Origin: Paracidobacterium acidisoli
Lineage (GTDB): Bacteria > Acidobacteriota > Terriglobia > Terriglobales > Acidobacteriaceae
NCBI RefSeq assembly: GCF_003428625.2
Contig: NZ_QVQT02000008.1
Coordinates: 71,420 to 135,419 of the forward strand
DNA: 64,000 bases
Direction: 5' to 3'
Numbering within the stretch: the stretch's first letter is position 1; every line of letters starts with the position of its first letter. This document shows, in pieces, positions 9,863 to 21,380 of the stretch. The notes under the pieces were generated by a model. That model saw nothing but the letters and a program-made list of their open reading frames with translations. It made no database searches and was not told the origin of the DNA. Position numbers and translations under genes: made by a program.

Positions 9863-9954
9863 GGAGAGGTGGCAGAGCCCGGTTGAATGCAGCTGACTCG
9901 AAATCAGCCATACCTTTACGGGTATCGGGGGTTCGAATCCCTCCCTCTCCGCCA
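9863..9954 (+). tRNA. tRNA-Ser (anticodon CGA)
   Basis: A class II cloverleaf can be folded by eye. The acceptor stem GGAGAGG (9863-9869) pairs with CCTCTCC (9944-9950), followed by discriminator G and an encoded CCA (9952-9954). The anticodon arm CTGA-CTCGAAA-TCAG places CGA at 9899-9901. A long variable arm around TACCTTTACGGGTA and the T-arm GGGGGTTCGAATCCCTC follow. The long variable arm and G73 discriminator agree with serine identity. No integrase or attachment-like repeat was seen beside it. Confidence 0.97.
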
Positions 9955-11165: not shown

Positions 11166-11468
11166 GAGCGTGGAGAGCGGGGCCGATCGCTTATCAGAAA
11201 AAGCGGATAACTTTAATGTCTCACAGGTACTATTTTTACAACAGCAAAAAAAGACGATTGCTTCTCGTACAGAGTGCGTTCTCTGCCGCCGGTTTTTCCA
11301 TCCGCACTCTCTGTGCGGGCCTCTTATGTGGACCTTCGTTATGGCGGCTGAAAGGCCGTGCCGGCCGTCTGCATTATGCGGAACAGAATGCCGGATCTTC
11401 CGGCGGGCGGAGCGCCGCTCCGGCAAAAAGCTATTGACTTTATACGGGGATATGATATCTCTCAAACT

Positions 11469-11543
11469 ATGAAACACACTTCCATCCATTTGGTGCAGGC
11501 CACGTTCAGCCTGTCGTGTGTTTCCGTTCGATGTCGTCTCTGA
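11469..11543 (+). CDS. Candidate 24-residue leader peptide with two cysteines
   Basis: An ATG at 11469 opens a 24-codon frame ending in TGA: residues MKHTSIHLVQATFSLSCV then SVRCRL. Cys codons are at positions 17 and 22, near the C-terminus. An AT element TTGACTTTATACGGGGATAT (11434-11453) lies just upstream. There is no Shine-Dalgarno, so translation would be leaderless-like. The ORF is overlapped by an inverted repeat. It lies 362 bases before the M28 peptidase. This could be an attenuation-type leader for a Cys- or sulfur-responsive cluster, but that is inference, and a chance ORF is a real alternative. Confidence 0.33.
   Translation: MKHTSIHLVQATFSLSCVSVRCRL
11471..11524 (+). promoter_or_regulatory. 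Nested inverted repeat overlapping the leader ORF
   Basis: GAAACACAC (11471-11479) is the exact reverse complement of GTGTGTTTC (11516-11524). Inside it CAGGC (11496-11500) pairs with GCCTG (11509-11513) around an 8-base loop. The RNA could fold as a two-tier hairpin that covers most of the leader ORF. No T-tract follows directly. It could be a regulatory RNA hairpin or an operator. Confidence 0.45.
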
Positions 11544-11905
11544 CATCCCCTTCTCCTCGCCTTTTGAAAAGGAAACCGTTCCCGCTCGTATCGTTGTTTT
11601 GCTGAGCTGCATGGGCTGGTGTACTGCACCGGCTGTCTCATAGTCCGTTCCGCGCAGCTGTATCTGCAGGGAAGGCAACTGTGCTGTCAGCTCGCAGCAG
11701 ATGATCGTTCTCTTTTCCTTTTCTCGCAGCGGCCATGTCGCCGCTTCAGATCAGCAGACCGGCTGTGCACGCTGTGGATGTGCCTGGAGCGCCGAAAGCC
11801 TGAGGTGATCTTTGCCTGGGCATTCGAACCGTTTCCAGGGCTCTCACTGCCCGCACGGAAGCGGTCTCGGGCATTCCGGCTCATGAAAGAAAGGAAAACG
11901 GGACG

Positions 11906-13507
11906 TTGAACAGCAGAAAGTTCCTGCTATTGATTCTCTCCGCCACGGCTGCAGTGATTGCATGCCCCGCGCAGGTCGATTCCCCCGACGCAGCCGCGCA
12001 GTGGTGGTCGCATGTCAGTTATCTCGCCAGCGATGCGCTCGCCGGACGCAGAACAGGCACTGCGGATTTCGTAAAGGCCGCGGAGTATCTTCAGGCGCAG
12101 TTCAAAGCGGCCGGCCTCAGCCCTGCGGGCGCCAGCGGCTACCTGCAGGATGTGGGATTTGAAGAGCAGCAGATCGATAACGCGGCCTCGCGTCTCGATG
12201 TCGTGTATGAAGGCCAGGCGGTTTCGCTTCCTGTTGGGAGCGCTGCGATTCTCTCTCCGTATGCCGGTCCGGATACGACCGTGGACGCGCCCGCTGTCTT
12301 TGCGGGCTATGGCTTTGCGGTGCCGGTGCAGCACTTCGACGACCTGAGCGGCGTCGATGTAAAGGGAAAGATTGCGGTGGTGCTGGCCGGCAGTCCGCCC
12401 TCAGTGCATGGTCCGCTGCGGGCTTATTTCAGAACCGCTGCGGAGCGCTGGAAGCAGCTGCGAGCCGCCGGCGCGGTCGGCGTCATTACCATTCAGGAGC
12501 CGAGGCCGCAGAACGCTCCCGCGGGGCCGCGTCCCGGCGAGGGACCGCGCCCGACGATTCGGCTGGCGAGCCCGGAGCTGAATCCTCTTGCCGGCAACAA
12601 GCTCAGCGCGACGGTTCCGATCGCAGCGGCAGATGCGCTGTTCGCGCACAGCGGGCACACGCTCTCCGATCTGGAAGCTCAGGCCGAGGCCGGTAAAGAG
12701 CTCCCGAAATTTTCACTGAACGTGACCATCCATGCTCACACGGCCGTGAAGCAGTTCAGCCAGTTTACGGCGCCGAATGTTGCGGGAGTGCTGGAGGGGA
12801 GCGATCGCAGGCTGAAGAAGGAGTACATCGTTCTCAGCGCGCACCTCGATCATCTGGGAAAGGGACGGCCCGTCAACGGAGACGACATCTACAACGGCGC
12901 GATGGATAACGCCACGGGGATCGCGTCGCTGATTGAAGTGGCGAAGCAGCTTGCAGCCGGGCCGCGGCCGAAGCGCTCGATCCTTTTTCTTGCGCTGACG
13001 GGTGAAGAAGAAGGCGAGCTGGGCTCGCAGTACTTTGCGCAGTTTCCAACCGTGCCGCGTGCGCAGATTGTCGCGGACCTCAACATGGATATGTATCTTC
13101 CGCTCTTTCCGCTGCGCTATCTGGAGGTGCAGGGGCTGGGAGAGTCGTCGCTCGGGAACGATGTGCGAGCTGTGGCGCAGCTGAACGATGTCGAGGTGCA
13201 GTTCGACAAACAGCCCGACCAGAACCGCTTTATCCGCAGCGATCAGGCGAGTTTTGTGAAGCACGGCATTCCCGCGCTTGCTTTCAAGTTCGGGTGGGTG
13301 CCCGATTCGCCGGAAGAAAAGACCTTCAACGACTGGATCAAAAACCGGTACCACAAGCCGTCGGACGATCTCGAACAGCCCGTCGATAAAAATGCGGCGG
13401 TGCTCTTCGATCGCATACTCGGCCAGCTCGCGCTGCGTGTGGCCAATGCCAAAGAGCGGCCTGCGTGGTATCCGGAGAGTTTCTTCGCTTCCATTCCGCG
13501 GTCGTAG
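11906..13507 (+). CDS. Exported M28 family zinc aminopeptidase with PA-like domain
   Basis: A 533-residue secreted metallopeptidase that releases N-terminal amino acids from peptides. Start TTG at 11906, preceded by AAAGGAAAA. The N-terminus has a signal peptide (KFLLLILSATAAVIACPAQ) in which VIAC could act as a lipobox. A protease-associated region lies at about 90-260 (VDVKGKIAVVLAGSPPSVHG). Peptidase M28 metal ligands are LSAHLDHLG (His), NGAMDNATGIASLIE (bridging Asp), ALTGEEEGELGSQYF (catalytic and metal Glu), DLNMDM (Asp) and VKHGIPALAF (His). It is followed 92 bases later by a TonB receptor and an S9 peptidase on the same strand, suggesting joint peptide degradation and import. Confidence 0.92.
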   Translation: MNSRKFLLLILSATAAVIACPAQVDSPDAAAQWWSHVSYLASDALAGRRTGTADFVKAAEYLQAQFKAAGLSPAGASGYLQDVGFEEQQIDNAASRLDVVYEGQAVSLPVGSAAILSPYAGPDTTVDAPAVFAGYGFAVPVQHFDDLSGVDVKGKIAVVLAGSPPSVHGPLRAYFRTAAERWKQLRAAGAVGVITIQEPRPQNAPAGPRPGEGPRPTIRLASPELNPLAGNKLSATVPIAAADALFAHSGHTLSDLEAQAEAGKELPKFSLNVTIHAHTAVKQFSQFTAPNVAGVLEGSDRRLKKEYIVLSAHLDHLGKGRPVNGDDIYNGAMDNATGIASLIEVAKQLAAGPRPKRSILFLALTGEEEGELGSQYFAQFPTVPRAQIVADLNMDMYLPLFPLRYLEVQGLGESSLGNDVRAVAQLNDVEVQFDKQPDQNRFIRSDQASFVKHGIPALAFKFGWVPDSPEEKTFNDWIKNRYHKPSDDLEQPVDKNAAVLFDRILGQLALRVANAKERPAWYPESFFASIPRS

Positions 13508-13599
13508 CGGGGCGGAGCGACGCAGCAGGAAAGACGTTTATCGGAACATATCGTTCCTCATTCATTTCATGGTGGCTTCGCATTTGTAAGGAGATTTAT

Positions 13600-16500
13600 A
13601 TGAGTTCTTCGGGAACCCGGCATAGTTTATTTCTTCTTCTCCTGATCTCGTTCGCGTTTGTTTCATTCGGCCAGACTGTTACCAGCGGCACCGTCGTCGG
13701 CTCTGTGACGGACTCGAGCGGCGCAATTGTTCCGGATGCAGCGGTGACCATCCGGCAGGCAGACACCGGCACGGTCCGCACGACGAAGACGACCGCCGCC
13801 GGCCAGTACCGCTTTCCGTTTCTCAAGCCGGGCGAGTATTCGATTACGGCCGAGGCTACGGGGCAGACGGCAAGCGTTCCGAGCTTCAGCCTGCTGGTGG
13901 GGCAGGAGCAGCAGATCAATCTGGTGCTCGCCGTGCAGTCGGTGCAGCAGTCTGTTTACGTGAACAGCTCTTCCACGCTGCTGGAGACGGAGAATGCCAA
14001 TCAGGCGACCTCGTACAGCGAAAAGGAAGTCGCCAACATGCCGGTGAACGGCGGCGACATCACGAACATCGCCTTTACGACGCCGGGCCTGCGGCTGAAT
14101 GTGGGCGGCGGCAATACGAACTTCAACGTCAACGGGCTGCCCTTCAGCTCAGCGCTCTTTACGGTCAACGGAGCCGACATCAACGAGCCGTACAACCTGA
14201 ACAACAAGTCCGGCGCGAGCAACAACACGCTCGGCGCCAATGATATTCAGGAGGCCGCGGTGGTGCTGAATGCCTTCAGCGCCCAATACGGCCGCATGGC
14301 CGGAGCGCAGGTGAATTACATCACCAAGTCCGGCACGAATGAGTTTCACGGCAATCTGGCGGAGAACTATAACGACGCCGTTTTCAATGCCAACGACTAC
14401 TTCAAGAACCTGGAAGGAACGCCGCGCGGACGCGCTGTGGCCAATCAGTATGCGGCTTCGATCGGCGGGCCGATCCTGAAGAACAAGCTCACCTTCTTCG
14501 CCAATACGGAAGGACTGCGCTACGCGCTGCCCTCTTCGGGCGTGGTCTCTCTGCCTTCGCCGCAGTTTCAGCAGTACACGCTGGCGCACATCCCGGCGGA
14601 CTCGGTGCCGTATTATCAGGATCTCTTCAAGCTCTACAACAATGCTCCGGGCGTGAACCGCGCGGTGCCTGTGACCAACGGCAACGGTCCTGAGCAGGAC
14701 AACACCGGTCACCTCGGCTGCGGCGTGCAGACATTTTCCGGCACGTATGTGAACGGATCGAGCGGCCCGCGCTTCGGCTCTGATGTGCCCTGCGCGGTCG
14801 CCTTCGGCACGAATGCGTCGAGCCTCAACACGGAGACTTATGTCTCCGGGCGCGTGGATTACAACATCAGCGACAGGCAGAAGATCTACTTTCGCCTGAG
14901 CCGCGACTGGGGCATTCAGGCCAGCGCCACCAGCCCCATCAGCCCCACCTTTAACCAGCAGAGCAATCAGCCCTGGACCATTCCGCAGGTCAACTACACC
15001 TACACCATTACGCCGACGCTGGTGAATAACTTCATCGCCAGCGGCAACTGGTACTCGGCGGTCTTCGGCGTGGTGAACTTCCCCGACGCGCAGACTGCTT
15101 TTCCCGGAAACATCACCTTCAACGACGGCGGGGCCAACGGCAGCGCCAACAATACAACGGGCACCGGGTTTGCCAACGTGAATGCGCTGCTGCCCACCGG
15201 ACGGCGCGGCGAGCAGTTCGAGCTGATCGACGACGTCTCATGGAGCCGCGGCCACCATACGATTCAGGCGGGCGTGAACGACCGCAACAATCGCATCTCG
15301 GACTCGAGCATCTCCAGCGGCTCGATCATCGGAGCCTACACGTTTAACGATCTCACCGACTTTGCAACCGGCGCGGTGAACAGCACCAGTACCGGCAGCA
15401 AATTCACGCAGTCCTTTCCGCTGCTTTCTACTGTGCACACACGGCTCAACTCGCTTGGCTTTTACGGGCAGGATGAATGGAGCGCCCGCAAAAATCTGAA
15501 CATCACCTACGGCGTGCGCTTTGAGCTGCAGGGAAATCCCTCGTGCAAAGAGAACTGCTACTCGCGCTTCAACACGGAGTTCCTGGCCTCCGGCTATCAG
15601 GCAGGAGCCGGTGTTCCATACAACACCACCATTCAGACCGGCCTGCACAAGAACTTCGCCAGCCTGGAAGGCGTTGTGACGGAGCCGCGTCTTGGCGTTG
15701 CCTGGTCTCCCCGCGGCGAGGGCGGGATCGTGATTCGCGGTGGTGTCGGTCTGTTTGCGAATACTTTTCCCGGCAGCATCGCCGCCAGCGTCTTTGGCAA
15801 TGCGCCCAACAAATTCACGCCCACGGTGAGCTATGGCGATGTGGCGCTGAACAACGACCCCAGCAGCTCTCAGTCGGTCGCCATCGCGTCCGACCTGGCC
15901 TTCCGCAACGGCTTTACCGCCGGTGACGATCTGAACCAGCTGCAGGCTGCGCTCGGCAGCGTGAAGTTCGCGACGCCGGCGTTTTATGTGAATCCGAACC
16001 ACTTCAGCACGATCAAGGTGCTCGAGTGGAGCCTCGAGCTGGAGCAGCCGCTGGGCCGCCGCGATGTCTTTGTCCTGAGCTATTCGGGCAATCATGGATA
16101 CGACGAGTCCGTGAACAACTCGGATGCGAATGCTTATATCGGCACTCCGAGCCGGTACCCCAACGGCTTCGGCGCGCTGCCCTCTGCGATTCCCGATCCA
16201 AGGTTTTCGACCGTCAGTCAGATTCTTACTTCGGGCTATTCGAATTACGACGGATTCACCGCGCTGGTGCGTCACGCCCTGAGCTATGGATTTCAGGGGC
16301 AGGCCAGCTACACCTGGAGCCACGCGCTGCAGCTGGAACCGCTCACCGGAACAGCGACGACCTTCTACGTCTACAACCCGTATAACCTGCGAGCCGGATA
16401 CGGCCCGACAGGCTTCGATACAAGAAACAACTTCACGGCCGATTTTCTGTGGGTTACGCCGCGGGAGAAGAATCGCTGGCTGCAGGCGGGGCTCGGCGGA

Positions 16501-17019
16501 TGGACACTGGGCAGCAAGCTGTATGTTTACAGCGGCCGCCCGTTTTCAGTCACCAACAGCAAGATTCCCGGCGGGCTCTCCACTACCTTTGGCGGACCGG
16601 TGCTGGCCGATCTGCTCGAGCAGAACCTGGCAGGGAAGCACTGCTCGCGAGCTGCTGTGACCACGCCGTGCTTCAGCAGCACGCAGTTTGCGACGTACCA
16701 GGCGACTGCGGCGAACCCGAATCAGCAGACCGATTTCGGCAATACTCCTCCAAACGATTTCCGGGGTCCGGGCTTCTTCAGCGTAGCCAGCCAGCTGACG
16801 AAGAGAATTCCCATTCATGAGCGTGTGGCCTTCGAGGCCGGAGCCACGGCCTACAACCTTTTCAACCACGCGAACTTCGCCGTGCCCACGGGCAACGTCG
16901 CTTCCGGTCTGGGACTGATTACCAGCACCGTCAGCTCGCCGACAAGCATCTATGGCACGGGACAGGGAGCAATCGTTTCGGGCCGCGTTCTGGTGCTGCT
17001 CGGCAAGTTCACGTTCTGA
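13600..17019 (+). CDS. TonB-dependent receptor, Oar-like with CarboxypepD regulatory domain
   Basis: A 1139-residue outer-membrane protein. After a signal peptide (HSLFLLLLISFAFVSFGQ) comes a CarboxypepD_reg-like Ig-fold domain at about 25-110 (SGTVVGSVTDSSGAIVPDA), then a plug domain (EVANMPVNGGDITNIAF; FSAQYGRMAGAQVNYITKSG) and a long beta barrel ending in ...GKFTF with a terminal Phe. This architecture is expanded in Acidobacteriota and is thought to import oligomers energised by TonB-ExbBD. I chose ATG 13600 because of the strong GTAAGGAG seven bases upstream. Frame-open sequence further upstream overlaps the peptidase gene. Flanking M28 and S9 peptidases suggest peptides as cargo, which is inference. 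Confidence 0.93.
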   Translation: MSSSGTRHSLFLLLLISFAFVSFGQTVTSGTVVGSVTDSSGAIVPDAAVTIRQADTGTVRTTKTTAAGQYRFPFLKPGEYSITAEATGQTASVPSFSLLVGQEQQINLVLAVQSVQQSVYVNSSSTLLETENANQATSYSEKEVANMPVNGGDITNIAFTTPGLRLNVGGGNTNFNVNGLPFSSALFTVNGADINEPYNLNNKSGASNNTLGANDIQEAAVVLNAFSAQYGRMAGAQVNYITKSGTNEFHGNLAENYNDAVFNANDYFKNLEGTPRGRAVANQYAASIGGPILKNKLTFFANTEGLRYALPSSGVVSLPSPQFQQYTLAHIPADSVPYYQDLFKLYNNAPGVNRAVPVTNGNGPEQDNTGHLGCGVQTFSGTYVNGSSGPRFGSDVPCAVAFGTNASSLNTETYVSGRVDYNISDRQKIYFRLSRDWGIQASATSPISPTFNQQSNQPWTIPQVNYTYTITPTLVNNFIASGNWYSAVFGVVNFPDAQTAFPGNITFNDGGANGSANNTTGTGFANVNALLPTGRRGEQFELIDDVSWSRGHHTIQAGVNDRNNRISDSSISSGSIIGAYTFNDLTDFATGAVNSTSTGSKFTQSFPLLSTVHTRLNSLGFYGQDEWSARKNLNITYGVRFELQGNPSCKENCYSRFNTEFLASGYQAGAGVPYNTTIQTGLHKNFASLEGVVTEPRLGVAWSPRGEGGIVIRGGVGLFANTFPGSIAASVFGNAPNKFTPTVSYGDVALNNDPSSSQSVAIASDLAFRNGFTAGDDLNQLQAALGSVKFATPAFYVNPNHFSTIKVLEWSLELEQPLGRRDVFVLSYSGNHGYDESVNNSDANAYIGTPSRYPNGFGALPSAIPDPRFSTVSQILTSGYSNYDGFTALVRHALSYGFQGQASYTWSHALQLEPLTGTATTFYVYNPYNLRAGYGPTGFDTRNNFTADFLWVTPREKNRWLQAGLGGWTLGSKLYVYSGRPFSVTNSKIPGGLSTTFGGPVLADLLEQNLAGKHCSRAAVTTPCFSSTQFATYQATAANPNQQTDFGNTPPNDFRGPGFFSVASQLTKRIPIHERVAFEAGATAYNLFNHANFAVPTGNVASGLGLITSTVSSPTSIYGTGQGAIVSGRVLVLLGKFTF

Positions 17020-17050
17020 TGAGACCGGCATACATACGGAGGAAGAAGAG

Positions 17051-19054
17051 ATGCGGATAAGAAAGCCCGAATCAAAGAGTCGATTGAAGTCCGGATCGAT
17101 CGTGCTGCTCCTGACGGTTGCCGCTCTGACTGCTGTGCCCGCGCCGGCACAGCAGAGACGGCCGCTTACGCTGCAGGATCTGGCGTATGCGGAACCATCA
17201 TTCGGACAGCGTGGTGTGCTTGCGCCGGATGGCAGACACTTCGCCATTACTGTCAAAGGGCAGATCGCTCTGCTGCCGGTGGATGGAGGGCCCGCCGTTC
17301 CCGTCACCACAGCGCCGGGCGCGAAGTCGGAGGTGAGCTGGTCGCCGGACGGCCGCAGCCTCGCCTTCGTCAGCGAGGGACAGATCTGGACAGTCTCGGC
17401 ATCGGGTGGAACGCCTCTCAGACTTACAAACGATCCCGCCGGTCCCGGTGATCCGCGCGGTGCGACCGATCATCTTCCGAAGTGGAATCCAAAAGGAGGA
17501 TGGATACTCTACGAGTCCGGCAGCAAAGGCTGGGATGAGCTTTGCGTGGTCAGCGAAGACGGGAAGACGAAGCATGAGCTGGCGCCCACTGAGGTCTACT
17601 CAGGCGCCGACGCTCTCGGCAACACGGCGCCCGATCATGGCGATGCGGTCTCCGCAGACCGCTTTGCTCCCGATCCTGCGTGGTCGCCGGATGGAACGCA
17701 CGTCTCCTATACCGAGCGGTCGCGCCGCTTCTTCTCCGGCAAGCTGAAGGTTCTGGATTTCGATCCGGCATCGGGTGAGCCGAAGGGCGATGCCGTCGAT
17801 GTGTATGTTGCGAAGAATGATCCAGGTGGCGCATGGGCTGTAAACACCGCAGCCTGGTCGCCGGACAGCAGAACCCTGGCCGTGGTGCTGCAGCAGACCG
17901 GATGGGACAAGATCTTTCTCATTCCGGCAGCCGGAGGCCAGCCGAAGCAGCTGACGCGCGGCGAGTCAGAGGATGAGACGCCGGTCTACGCGCCGAATGG
18001 CCGATGGATCGCGATCGTCTCCAATCGCGATCTGCCGGAAGAGCGGCATATCTGGATTGTGCCCACGGATGGCTCCGCGCCGTGGAGGCTGACGCACACT
18101 GCCGGGGTTGAGAGCGATCCGCAGTGGTCGCCCGACAGCGGCACCATTTATTTTTCACGCGGCACATCGCTGCGCGAGCCTGTCACGTATGCGGCACCGG
18201 TGCGCGGCGGCGAAGCGGCGCGTCCGCTGCAGCCGCTGAAGCCGTCGATCTATGAAGAGGCCGGCCTGCCCGCTCCGGAGGTCGCGCACTACAAGGGCAA
18301 GGATGGACTGCCGCTGGCCGGCATCCTTTACCGCCCGCTGGGCTATCGCGCCGGTGTGCGCTATCCCACGGTGATCTGGGCGCATGGAGGTCCTGAAGGG
18401 CAGGTCACGCTGAGCCTTTCGCCGTGGTCGCTGTTTCTGGCGCAGGAAGGCTTTCTGGTCTTCGAGCCGAACTTTCGCGGCGGTACGGGATACGGCGAAA
18501 GATTTCGCAATCTGAATGTGGAAGACTCCGGCGGCGGCGAGATCGACGATATCGGCGCGGCCGTGCAGTCGCTCATCGATCGCGGGCTTGCCGATCCGAA
18601 GCGTGTGGCGATTGGCGGCGGCAGCCACGGAGGAACCGTGGTGGCGAATGCGGTGACCAAGCTTCCCGATCTGTTCGCCGCGGGCATCGAGATGTTCGGC
18701 GTCGTCGACCGCGCGCTCTATCTTCAGTACACGAATCGCAACTCAAGAATACGGTGGGAGACGAAAATGGGAGGAACTCCGGAAGAGAAGCCCGCCGTTT
18801 ACCGCCGCGCGAATGTGCTGCCGGATGTGGACCGCATCAAAGCGCCGCTGCTGGTCCTGCATGGCGAGGAGGACCCGCAGGTGCCTCCGCAGGAGTCGAT
18901 CGAGTTTGTCGCTGCGCTGAAAAAGGCCGGGAAAACCTACAGCTATTTCACGTATCCCAACGAGGGCCACGGGTTCCGGATACCGGCGCACCGGCTCGAT
19001 TCCATGCAGCGCGAGCTGGCATTTCTGCAGAAGTATCTCAACCCTCAGCCATAA
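17051..19054 (+). CDS. Exported S9 family prolyl-oligopeptidase-like serine peptidase
   Basis: A 667-residue secreted peptidase with a signal peptide ending in VPAPAQQ. Residues about 60-390 form a PD40/WD40-like propeller with repeated WSPDG blades (SEVSWSPDGRSLAFVS, DPAWSPDGTHVSYT, NTAAWSPDSRTLAVV, DPQWSPDSGTIYFS). The C-terminal alpha/beta-hydrolase domain has the nucleophile elbow IGGGSHGGTVVANA (Gly-Gly-Ser-His-Gly), the Asp in HGEEDPQVPP and the His in YPNEGHGFR. Start ATG 17051 has GGAGGAAGAAGAG directly upstream. The gene lies 31 bases after the TonB receptor and is probably in one operon with it, cutting peptides in the periplasm or outside the cell. Confidence 0.93.
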   Translation: MRIRKPESKSRLKSGSIVLLLTVAALTAVPAPAQQRRPLTLQDLAYAEPSFGQRGVLAPDGRHFAITVKGQIALLPVDGGPAVPVTTAPGAKSEVSWSPDGRSLAFVSEGQIWTVSASGGTPLRLTNDPAGPGDPRGATDHLPKWNPKGGWILYESGSKGWDELCVVSEDGKTKHELAPTEVYSGADALGNTAPDHGDAVSADRFAPDPAWSPDGTHVSYTERSRRFFSGKLKVLDFDPASGEPKGDAVDVYVAKNDPGGAWAVNTAAWSPDSRTLAVVLQQTGWDKIFLIPAAGGQPKQLTRGESEDETPVYAPNGRWIAIVSNRDLPEERHIWIVPTDGSAPWRLTHTAGVESDPQWSPDSGTIYFSRGTSLREPVTYAAPVRGGEAARPLQPLKPSIYEEAGLPAPEVAHYKGKDGLPLAGILYRPLGYRAGVRYPTVIWAHGGPEGQVTLSLSPWSLFLAQEGFLVFEPNFRGGTGYGERFRNLNVEDSGGGEIDDIGAAVQSLIDRGLADPKRVAIGGGSHGGTVVANAVTKLPDLFAAGIEMFGVVDRALYLQYTNRNSRIRWETKMGGTPEEKPAVYRRANVLPDVDRIKAPLLVLHGEEDPQVPPQESIEFVAALKKAGKTYSYFTYPNEGHGFRIPAHRLDSMQRELAFLQKYLNPQP

Positions 19055-19135: not shown

Positions 19136-20188
19136 TTATGCCGGCTTCAGCGCCTGAATCACCGACTCGCTGAAGCGCTCCATCTCTTCCATCTGCGGGC
19201 TGAACTGCAGCAGAAGCAGATCGACGCCTGCTTTCTCGAATTGCTCGATCCGATCCTGCACCTGCGCCGGGGTTCCGACGAGGCCGGAGCGCAGGCCGCG
19301 ATTGGAGACCGAATACTCCTCGATGGAGACGGTCCGCTCGAGCTGCGTTCCCTGCAGCCACTGCTGATAGTTCGCGTAACCGGAGGCGTTCTGCTTTACG
19401 TCGGTGATGCGCTCTACCTCGCGCTGCGCCTCCTGCTCCGTCTGTCGAACAATGGCATATCCGGCGACGCCATACTGCATGGGAGGCAGACCGAAGCGCT
19501 CGCGCCGCGCCTTCATGTCTTCGATCCGGGTGCGAATATCCTCCGGCGAATCGCCGTGCATCACGTAGGCATCGCACTTCTGCGCGATCAGGTTCTTCGC
19601 CGCTTCCGATTCGCCGCCGGCATAGATCGGCGGCCGCGGTTTGCGCACGGGCTTCGGTTCGAGCACGGTGCCTTCGAGCGTGTAGTAGCGGCCGGTGTGA
19701 GTGAAGGAAGACTGCGACCACACTCCGTCAACCACGTCGAGCCACTCTGAGGTGCGCGCGTAGCGATCGTCATGGCGGTCGAAGGTGACGCCATACATGC
19801 GCGCCTCCTGCTCCCACCAGGATGACACCACATTGAGCGCGAGCCTGCCGTTGCTGATGTGATCGATGTTCGCCGCCTGTTTGGCCAGCAATGCGGGAGT
19901 ATGAAAGGTGGGCCGCACGGCGATCATCAGCTCCAGCTTTTCTGTCACCGCGGCCAACGCCGCGGATGTTGACCAGGCATCGAGGCCAGGCGCGTGAACG
20001 CCTTTAATGTCGTTCAGGTTCAGCTCGGCGATCAGGCTCAGGTCGAAGCCGATCTGCTCGCTGCGGCGCGCCAGACGGCTGACATAAGCCCAGCTCGCCT
20101 CCATCCCCTCGTCTTCCACATTGCGAAGCCATCCGCCGAAGACCGGCATCCAGTAGCCGAATCGCATTCCCTGATTACTTTGCGGCAC
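19136..20188 (-). CDS. LLM flavin-dependent monooxygenase (SsuD/SfnG-like)
   Basis: A 350-residue bacterial luciferase-like TIM-barrel monooxygenase that would use reduced FMN and oxygen. It begins MRFGYWMPVFGGWLRN, like dimethylsulfone/alkanesulfonate monooxygenases, and has the family blocks MIAVRPTFHTPALLAKQAAN, GRLALNVVSSWWEQEARMYG, ERFGLPP and a GLVGTPAQVQDRIEQFEKAGVD substrate-binding tail. I chose GTG at 20188 because AGGAGAGG lies six bases upstream, whereas the ATG at 20167 has no proper site. With this start it overlaps the ATP-grasp gene by 14 bases, so the two are translationally coupled. A sulfonate or sulfone substrate is inferred from similarity. Other LLM members oxidise amines or other compounds. 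Confidence 0.85.
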   Translation of the reverse strand: MPQSNQGMRFGYWMPVFGGWLRNVEDEGMEASWAYVSRLARRSEQIGFDLSLIAELNLNDIKGVHAPGLDAWSTSAALAAVTEKLELMIAVRPTFHTPALLAKQAANIDHISNGRLALNVVSSWWEQEARMYGVTFDRHDDRYARTSEWLDVVDGVWSQSSFTHTGRYYTLEGTVLEPKPVRKPRPPIYAGGESEAAKNLIAQKCDAYVMHGDSPEDIRTRIEDMKARRERFGLPPMQYGVAGYAIVRQTEQEAQREVERITDVKQNASGYANYQQWLQGTQLERTVSIEEYSVSNRGLRSGLVGTPAQVQDRIEQFEKAGVDLLLLQFSPQMEEMERFSESVIQALKPA

Positions 20189-21182
20189 GGGCAACCTCTC
20201 CTTCGAGGAAGTCGGCAAGATGAACGAAGGGATCGAAGCCGATGACGCGCGGAGCGTCTGCAACAAAATTCGAAAGAGCGTTCACGTCGTAGTAGTAGAT
20301 CTGCCCGTCGCGGTCGTCGACGATGTATTCGATACCGCCCACGTCGATGCCCGCAGCGGCGACGATCCGCTCGATGGTATGAATGACCTCCGGCGGCGGA
20401 GTATAGCCTTCCACCTTCAGACCGGCCTTCGCTGCCTCGACCACGCAGGCATTCTGCAGCGCCTCTCCGCGAGCCGTCTGACAGATATCGGCTGGGCACA
20501 GGTCGAAGGTCTGCCCGCTGAGGTGCACATGGATCGCATAGAGAAACTTTCCGTTCAGCGTTTCCACGCGCGTAATGCGGCCCTCGCGCGCGGGGATGAA
20601 CTCCTGCACCAGCGCGATGTGATCGAAGCCGAGCTGCAGAGCGCCCTCGTCCGCAGCCGCGGCAAGATCGTTCGGGCTGTCGAAGCGAACGATGCCGGCT
20701 CCGCTGCCGCCGACGTTGGGTTTCACCACCACGGGGTAACGAAGACCTTCCGCCGCCGCTGCCGCGTGGCGTGGATCGTGAATCACCCTTGAGCGTGGAT
20801 ACGAGATGCCAAGAGAGCGCAGCAGCGATAACTGCAGAGCCTTCGAGATTTCATAGCGAAAGGCCTTCACACCGTTAACGACTCGCGCGCCGAGCAGCTC
20901 CAGATGCTCGAGGTAGGCGAGCGTGTGAAGGATGCCGGTGCCGTGGCCGCGGCGGTCGGCCGAAGGGCTCATGCGATTGAAGAGCACGCGAAAGGATGGT
21001 GCGTCTCCGCTCACGTCATAGATATGATCGGGCGCATAGATCTTCTGATAGAGAACTTCCCGTTTGTCCAGCTCCGTGAAGATGGGAGCAAACCAGCGTG
21101 GATGCTCATAAAGAAACGCGAGCGCAGCCGCGGATGATACGGATTCGCTGCCGGTGGCCGGAGACGCGACGGCTGTGGTCAT
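20175..21182 (-). CDS. ATP-grasp (RimK-like) carboxylate-amine ligase
   Basis: A 335-residue ATP-grasp enzyme. These enzymes activate a carboxylate as acyl-phosphate and join it to an amine or thiol. Visible are the ATP-binding strand YPVVVKPNVGGSGAGIVRF, the hinge ALVQEFIPAREGRITRVETL and the magnesium-binding YYYDVNALSNFVAD (Asp and Asn). ATG 21182 has GAGAGG nine bases upstream. The sequence upstream in frame looks like translated spacer. It overlaps the flavin monooxygenase by 14 bases. Substrate is unknown. Its tight coupling to an SsuD-like enzyme suggests a role in modifying or recycling a sulfur- or amine-containing small molecule, an inference only. Confidence 0.83.
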   Translation of the reverse strand: MTTAVASPATGSESVSSAAALAFLYEHPRWFAPIFTELDKREVLYQKIYAPDHIYDVSGDAPSFRVLFNRMSPSADRRGHGTGILHTLAYLEHLELLGARVVNGVKAFRYEISKALQLSLLRSLGISYPRSRVIHDPRHAAAAAEGLRYPVVVKPNVGGSGAGIVRFDSPNDLAAAADEGALQLGFDHIALVQEFIPAREGRITRVETLNGKFLYAIHVHLSGQTFDLCPADICQTARGEALQNACVVEAAKAGLKVEGYTPPPEVIHTIERIVAAAGIDVGGIEYIVDDRDGQIYYYDVNALSNFVADAPRVIGFDPFVHLADFLEGEVARAAK

Positions 21183-21380
21183 GGAAGATATCCTCTCAGC
21201 ACAGATAGCCCGGATTTGACCGGCGGCCTTTCCTGAAGAAAGCGCCGGTAACTCCGATTCTATCTCCGCAATTGCCGCGCTGTGCCTCCGCATATCGCGG
21301 CGCATGCGAGGGTGTTTCGCCGCGTCCATGTCTGCCGCGCTGACTGCGGTGTGCCGCGCCGGTTAAAATGCCGGGAAAGC

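Follow-up and report, generated by a model that had tools for sequence, protein, structure and literature searches.

Candidate cysteine-responsive leader peptides ahead of TonB receptor-peptidase and sulfate-assimilation genes in Acidobacteriaceae

INTRODUCTION

In a classical amino-acid attenuator, for instance the trp leader, the regulatory codons lie in a leader ORF with a terminator behind it. In mycobacteria, leaderless polycysteine ORFs were reportedly recognized as cysteine-responsive attenuators by Canestrari et al. in 2020. The available parts of three published reports likewise describe leaderless polycysteine short ORFs of mycobacteria as cysteine-responsive attenuators (PMC9094748, PMC9031893, PMC13236596), and a 2005 study, in the portion available, predicted leader peptides for actinobacterial cys operons, with Cys codons grouped in runs close to the stop codon and Rho proposed where there is no terminator (PMC1262725). 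The papers listed in the literature searches included no report of Cys leader peptides for Acidobacteriota, which does not in itself prove that there is none.

RESULTS

We analyzed a 64,000-nt stretch (the window) of the Paracidobacterium acidisoli genome (5.0 Mb, 15 contigs), in which an earlier note had pointed to a 24-codon ORF with Cys at positions 17 and 22. This ORF, MKHTSIHLVQATFSLSCVSVRCRL, is present exactly as described and runs from ATG 11469 to TGA 11543 on the plus strand. The features of the leader are as follows.

11434-11461, plus strand: promoter, with TTGACT at 11434-11439, a 16-nt spacer and an extended -10 element, TGATATCTC, at 11453-11461
11469-11543, plus strand: leader ORF MKHTSIHLVQATFSLSCVSVRCRL, probably near-leaderless, with counterparts at 12 other loci
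11517-11519, plus strand: Cys17 codon of the leader ORF, TGT
11532-11534, plus strand: Cys22 codon of the leader ORF, TGT, within the RCR ending

The AT element that had been placed ahead of the ORF is also there, and we interpret it as a promoter of the form TTGACT-16-TGATATCTC. Because its extended -10 element ends 7 nt 5' of ATG 11469 and no Shine-Dalgarno-like sequence precedes this start codon, the leader mRNA is probably near-leaderless, starting at or next to the ATG. A stricter consensus promoter scan did not list this promoter, and the single promoter-like site that it returned is on the opposite strand. As a query against 61 genomes, the peptide retrieved only itself plus a single weak match (E 2.67), and no NCBIfam model matched it. 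Rfam, applied to the window at the gathering score, placed nothing at the leader; its sole match was a tRNA gene of 89 nt (9863-9951, plus strand).

The gap of 362 bases between the ORF and the first gene, which starts at TTG 11906, was also given correctly. The genes that follow are listed below.

11906-13507, plus strand: M28 peptidase, which opens the unit (start TTG 11906)
13465-17019, plus strand: TonB-dependent receptor (OMP_b-brl_4, CarboxypepD_reg, Plug)
16952-19054, plus strand: S9 prolyl oligopeptidase-type peptidase
19136-20266, minus strand: LLM monooxygenase, SfnG-like
20175-21329, minus strand: ATP-grasp protein

The cluster described before does contain peptidases and a TonB receptor, but the monooxygenase that had been counted with them lies on the opposite strand and belongs to another transcription unit in the window. 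In the G217 genome, the order is TBDR-S9-M28-ATPgrasp-LLM, all on one strand, with the Cys ORF preceding the receptor; the M28 peptidase there is 65% identical to that of the window. By eye, a GntR-type regulator ORF lies immediately upstream of the G217 leader (L033, about 2160-2920). The regions directly upstream of M28 orthologues carried no leader, since in the compared relatives another gene precedes M28. Of 398 family genomes, 74 contained the LLM monooxygenase, and the ATP-grasp gene adjoins it in 39 of 41 compared loci, several of which are cut by contig ends. Inspection by eye of the regions upstream of the ATP-grasp/LLM pair, where a few contigs end too early, revealed no consistent leader.

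We then used the TonB receptor as a query. Among 300 genomes, seven homologues (source genome included) were at least 61% identical, the next best being 47%; among 79 named loci kept of 339, nine were at least 57% identical, with the next best at 48%. Three organisms are common to both lists, leaving 13 distinct loci, window included. The earlier note had suggested looking for C-terminal Cys residues that are kept while the rest of the peptide drifts, and this is the pattern found: all 13 receptor homologues found at or above 57% identity are preceded by a short ORF in which the last Cys lies 1-4 residues from the end (e.g., CCCPCRSC and RCCCCRA). The 12 counterparts of the window leader are as follows.

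G181 leader: MACEQIIATKISDEGSALPCLPTRCRS
G165 leader: MEHRFISVKATDSDPVCPSQPVRCRF
G095 leader: MSSAHGISNVPGARMAAAPLSPRRCRL, one Cys codon
G217 leader: MHKNDHMIEVLFIAASLCVLPCRCR
TAA 166 leader: MHRRRHTFEVNFVLRRCCCLCILPCRCR
Edaphobacter MAG leader: MDVSRLIFKVRLFEHPMCILPCRCC
L136 leader: MHWNWSMSGFSTPTAICVCTIPCRCC
L137 leader: MHNLRYECCCRLCAIAGDVELCVTE
O. savannae leader: MRVLTHFTKNLGSTSSASFLCCRCR
S. bohemicum leader: MNRAPIMSIQLIASRVCCCPCRSC
Terracidiphilus gabretensis leader: MRKRGYRFVDGSVAAAVCLLPCRCR
Edaphobacter lichenicola leader: MRRSFLEQPLEMSGSSLCAGTRCCCCRA

Silvibacterium bohemicum and Occallatibacter savannae belong to the Acidobacteriaceae, Acidobacteriota. Downstream of the receptor, 12 of the 13 loci have an S9 peptidase, the exception being L137. 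Adjacent Cys pairs or runs occur in six of the 13 leaders (L134, L135, L137, L138, L139, L141, or L136 by way of its final pair); the window leader has two Cys codons, which are not adjacent. An extended -10 element lies 4-9 nt ahead of the start codon in 12 of the 13, none of the 13 has a Shine-Dalgarno sequence, and GATAT-rich repeats overlap the -10 element in most of them. A rule-based scan that demands an extended -10 element and a Cys near the ORF end matched eight of the nine closest named loci versus one of the 70 others (Fisher 3e-9). The leader that it missed, that of L137, was read from the sequence and recovered by a scan for three Cys in ten residues, which gave 21 sense versus 12 antisense matches at the 79 loci, with the L134-L141 leaders among the sense matches. 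A scan for the RCR ending yielded 18 matches (duplicates included) versus four in the reversed control. No leader was found where the receptor was at most 48% identical; some of these distant loci have short upstream sequence (L142, 336 nt).

The GATAT-rich repeats over the -10 element, together with the GntR-type ORF upstream of the G217 leader, could be read as the mark of a protein-controlled promoter, for example one with a GntR-type repressor bound at the repeated GATAT, in which case the Cys ORF would be a minor or passive passenger. We consider this unlikely: the extended -10 element already accounts for TGATAT, and such control would leave unexplained the terminal Cys at 13 of 13 loci as well as the TGT bias and the poly-Cys ORFs of sulfate assimilation described below.

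Cys accounts for 47 of the 335 residues of the 13 receptor leaders, and 37 of these 47 Cys codons are TGT. In long frames, which were picked mechanically at 300 codons or more, TGT makes up about 20% of Cys codons (50/246 in the window plus L302 and 46/230 in relatives); the difference from the leaders has a Fisher p of 9e-16, which overstates independence, as do the other p-values for these leaders, because they share descent and were partly selected for Cys. The choice between TGT and TGC played no part in the selection. A separate set of peptides, the 12 cys-operon leaders introduced next, has 60 TGT versus 17 TGC codons (p 7e-23).

PF01507 was detected in 12 of the 13 leader-bearing genomes, but not in G200. 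Eleven of the 12 have a Cys-rich ORF that begins 278-363 nt upstream of the cysD-type match; ten of these ORFs were found with a stricter rule and that of L244 with a looser one, and the L252 ORF starts with GTG. In the twelfth, the source genome, cysD is not first, and the run opens with a sulfite-reductase-like gene that has MSLCPTPVMACCACCRTLSRFCG about 110 nt ahead of it.

L302, G000:C10:258500-272500, minus strand, ATG near C10:266171: leader ORF MSLCPTPVMACCACCRTLSRFCG ahead of sulfite reductase-siroheme synthase-cysD-cysN-cysH

The genes of this run were named by eye from their translations, and PF01507 additionally identifies cysD and cysH. A role in cysteine and sulfur supply is clear for the genes downstream of these leaders in the cysD and sulfite reductase runs. 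We looked at another 29 loci, drawn from 60 genomes of the family: such an ORF occurred in 11 sense versus three antisense cases over the same stretch. When 60 loci were scanned more loosely over 1.5 kb, the two strands were alike (27 sense versus 28 antisense); the signal lies in position rather than in raw count. All 12 leaders from the leader-bearing genomes contain Cys runs, except where the runs are short, and two of the 12 have an extended -10 element.

The terminator set comprised 20 cys-operon leaders, namely these 12 and eight of the 11 further sense matches; L306, L307, and L315 were left out as unconvincing by eye. Of the 20, 11 are followed by an intrinsic terminator that reaches at least -8 kcal/mol and starts 26-52 nt past the stop codon. 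That behind MSLCPTPVMACCACCRTLSRFCG reaches -20.2 kcal/mol (0/30 shuffles equal), and in seven of the 12 the terminator was equaled by at most 2/30 shuffles. Pairing of the leader end with the 5' arm of the terminator clearly beats shuffles in one of 11 cases; in the other 10, at least 15/200 codon shuffles give equally good antiterminator pairing.

Further candidate leaders precede peptidase genes. In O. savannae, a divergent S9 peptidase is preceded by a second leader of the same type, MMTLPISLPSSGCPVARLLPCRCC (L226; L138 minus strand near 2286), retrieved by R1 at E 0.0055. R1 failed to recover the L137 leader; of 18 weaker R1 matches that we inspected, L226 alone reads as a leader. In G181, the Cys-run ORF MKQLSHSVASRHPLTLCCCFMPARS (L113 minus strand, ATG 1272) precedes an M14-like carboxypeptidase, its family assigned by eye; the general poly-Cys scan is noisy (22 matches versus 14 in the reversed control), and we treat this M14 candidate as weak evidence.

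Such counts bear on whether the window ORF might be a chance ORF that has no function. Short Cys ORFs are common, and the looser scans discriminate poorly (27 versus 28 antisense, 22 versus 14 reversed, 21 versus 12). Nevertheless, the combination of position and promoter (8/9 versus 1/70), the RCR ending (18 versus 4 reversed) and the TGT bias make chance an extremely improbable explanation.

The RNA features around the window leader are listed below.

11471-11524, plus strand: nested inverted repeat, with outer arms GAAACACAC at 11471-11479 and GTGTGTTTC at 11516-11524
11496-11500 and 11509-11513, plus strand: inner arms of the nested repeat, CAGGC and GCCTG
11530-11547, plus strand: small hairpin, GATGTC-GTCTCT-GACATC, spanning the final Cys codon and the stop codon (86.9% of cells paired, 12 rows)
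11544-11565, plus strand: pyrimidine-rich stretch past the stop codon with C over G, a possible Rho entry site

The nested inverted repeat reported previously does exist in the window, where the 11440-11560 fold reaches -36.6 kcal/mol (z -4.83, equaled by 0/200 dinucleotide shuffles), but it is not general among the relatives, as the mean fold z across the 13 receptor leaders is -1.5. Its inner hairpin (11495-11514) scored as weakly terminator-like, with three such sites in the region versus 1.1 expected. The smaller hairpin that spans the final Cys codon and the stop codon is for the most part shared: it could be aligned in 12 of the 13, with 86.9% of cells pairing versus 25-61% in slid versions, and CGATGTCG is retained in eight of the 12 aligned rows, window included. 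Covariation in this hairpin among the 12 aligned leaders was not above that of shuffles.

No clear intrinsic terminator follows the window leader; the best candidate, at -12.9 kcal/mol, was matched by 6/30 shuffles. Behind the other receptor leaders, terminators beyond shuffles were found at L137 and L138 (0/30 each) and at L133 (1/30); in G217, the end of the ORF lies in a weak stem that is followed by a T run, and 16/30 shuffles were as good. GC skew is -0.18 to -0.25 in 80-base windows across 11460-11599, and the excess of C over G downstream of the stop codon would suit Rho.

The window copy might then be a decayed or neutral relic, unresponsive while the leaders of the relatives work, given its two Cys codons, the missing terminator, a fold unlike that of the relatives and the M28 gene inserted ahead of the receptor. 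Yet the promoter spacing, the start, the RCR ending, CGATGTCG and the stop hairpin are all retained in it, and we regard decay as quite unlikely.

A more serious alternative is translational attenuation, in which the same sensor is used but stalling, instead of blocking termination, exposes the ribosome-binding site from which the first gene is translated. Translation attenuation appears in the available text of reports on mycobacterial cysteine genes (PMC13236596; PMC9031893), the window leader has no clear terminator, and the minimum-energy fold of 11460-11930 predicts that the region ahead of TTG 11906 is largely paired. Against it, the gap of 362 nt is long, and 11 of the 20 cys-operon leaders in the same organisms have intrinsic terminators. 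The first gene also varies (M28 in the window, the receptor in relatives), making a fixed pairing unlikely. On balance, we hold translational attenuation to be possible but doubtful. Within the window, TTTTCCTTT (11705-11730) is complementary to AAAGGAAAA (11885-11905) just ahead of the M28 start; this putative pairing may possibly mask the M28 ribosome-binding site.

DISCUSSION

The suggestion that a leader peptide senses cysteine at this locus gains support from the C-terminal Cys at all 13 loci and from the poly-Cys ORFs ahead of sulfate-assimilation genes, and we conclude that the window leader is probably a cysteine-responsive leader-peptide attenuator. The ORF, the promoter spacing, the Cys conservation, the TGT bias, the sulfate-assimilation poly-Cys ORFs and the many terminators are read from sequence; from them we infer translation, stalling, the direction of control, the output step and the substrate. 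Transcription would start at ATG 11469 or within a base or two of it, as the promoter spacing implies, and the mini-ORF would be translated immediately. When Cys-tRNA is ample, the ribosome would complete the peptide and depart, RNA structure or Rho would act within the 362-nt leader, and the unit of M28 peptidase, TonB receptor, and S9 peptidase would be kept low. When Cys-tRNA is scarce, the ribosome would stall at TGT codon 17 or 22 and cover the small hairpin (11530-11547) and/or the C-rich tract beyond it, so that termination or sequestration would fail and the genes would be expressed. The imported substrate from which the unit would then gain sulfur may be peptides. For the output step, we judge blocked termination to be likelier than translational control, which is its main rival.

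With rather less assurance, we favor a broader proposal, that several kinds of operon in Acidobacteriaceae (for sulfate assimilation, for scavenging by TonB receptors and peptidases, and for further peptidases) are each governed by a separate Cys-rich mini-ORF, with stalling at UGU codons coupling cysteine supply to outer-membrane nutrient capture without a dedicated regulator. If true, cysteine control sensed by the ribosome reaches beyond Actinobacteria to another phylum, the cysteine signal offers a testable substrate hypothesis for the TonB receptor-peptidase unit, and further such leaders could be sought by their UGU preference, a simple genomic signature. Control of cysteine genes by a leader peptide is already known; the present leaders are distinguished by the phylum, the TonB/peptidase target and the terminators behind the cys-operon leaders.

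Compared with the classical trp-type attenuator, the cys-operon cases of Acidobacteriaceae are alike in having regulatory codons followed by a terminator, whereas the window leader lacks a clear terminator and the receptor set probably has a near-leaderless start. As in the available account of the actinobacterial predictions, runs of Cys codons lie near the stop codon, upstream of cys genes (PMC1262725); that account gives no obvious terminators, in contrast to 11 of the 20 cys-operon leaders here (PMC1262725). To the extent that the available reports describe them, the mycobacterial polycysteine ORFs resemble the present leaders in that a short Cys-rich ORF precedes cysteine or sulfur genes, in the present leaders too probably with its start at or close to the 5' end, and in that several operons per genome carry one. 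Relative to those ORFs, the leaders of Acidobacteriaceae belong to another phylum, are predicted from sequence, carry in the receptor set mostly two to five Cys, placed at the end of the ORF, are followed by intrinsic terminators in many cys operons and include a TonB receptor-peptidase unit among their targets.
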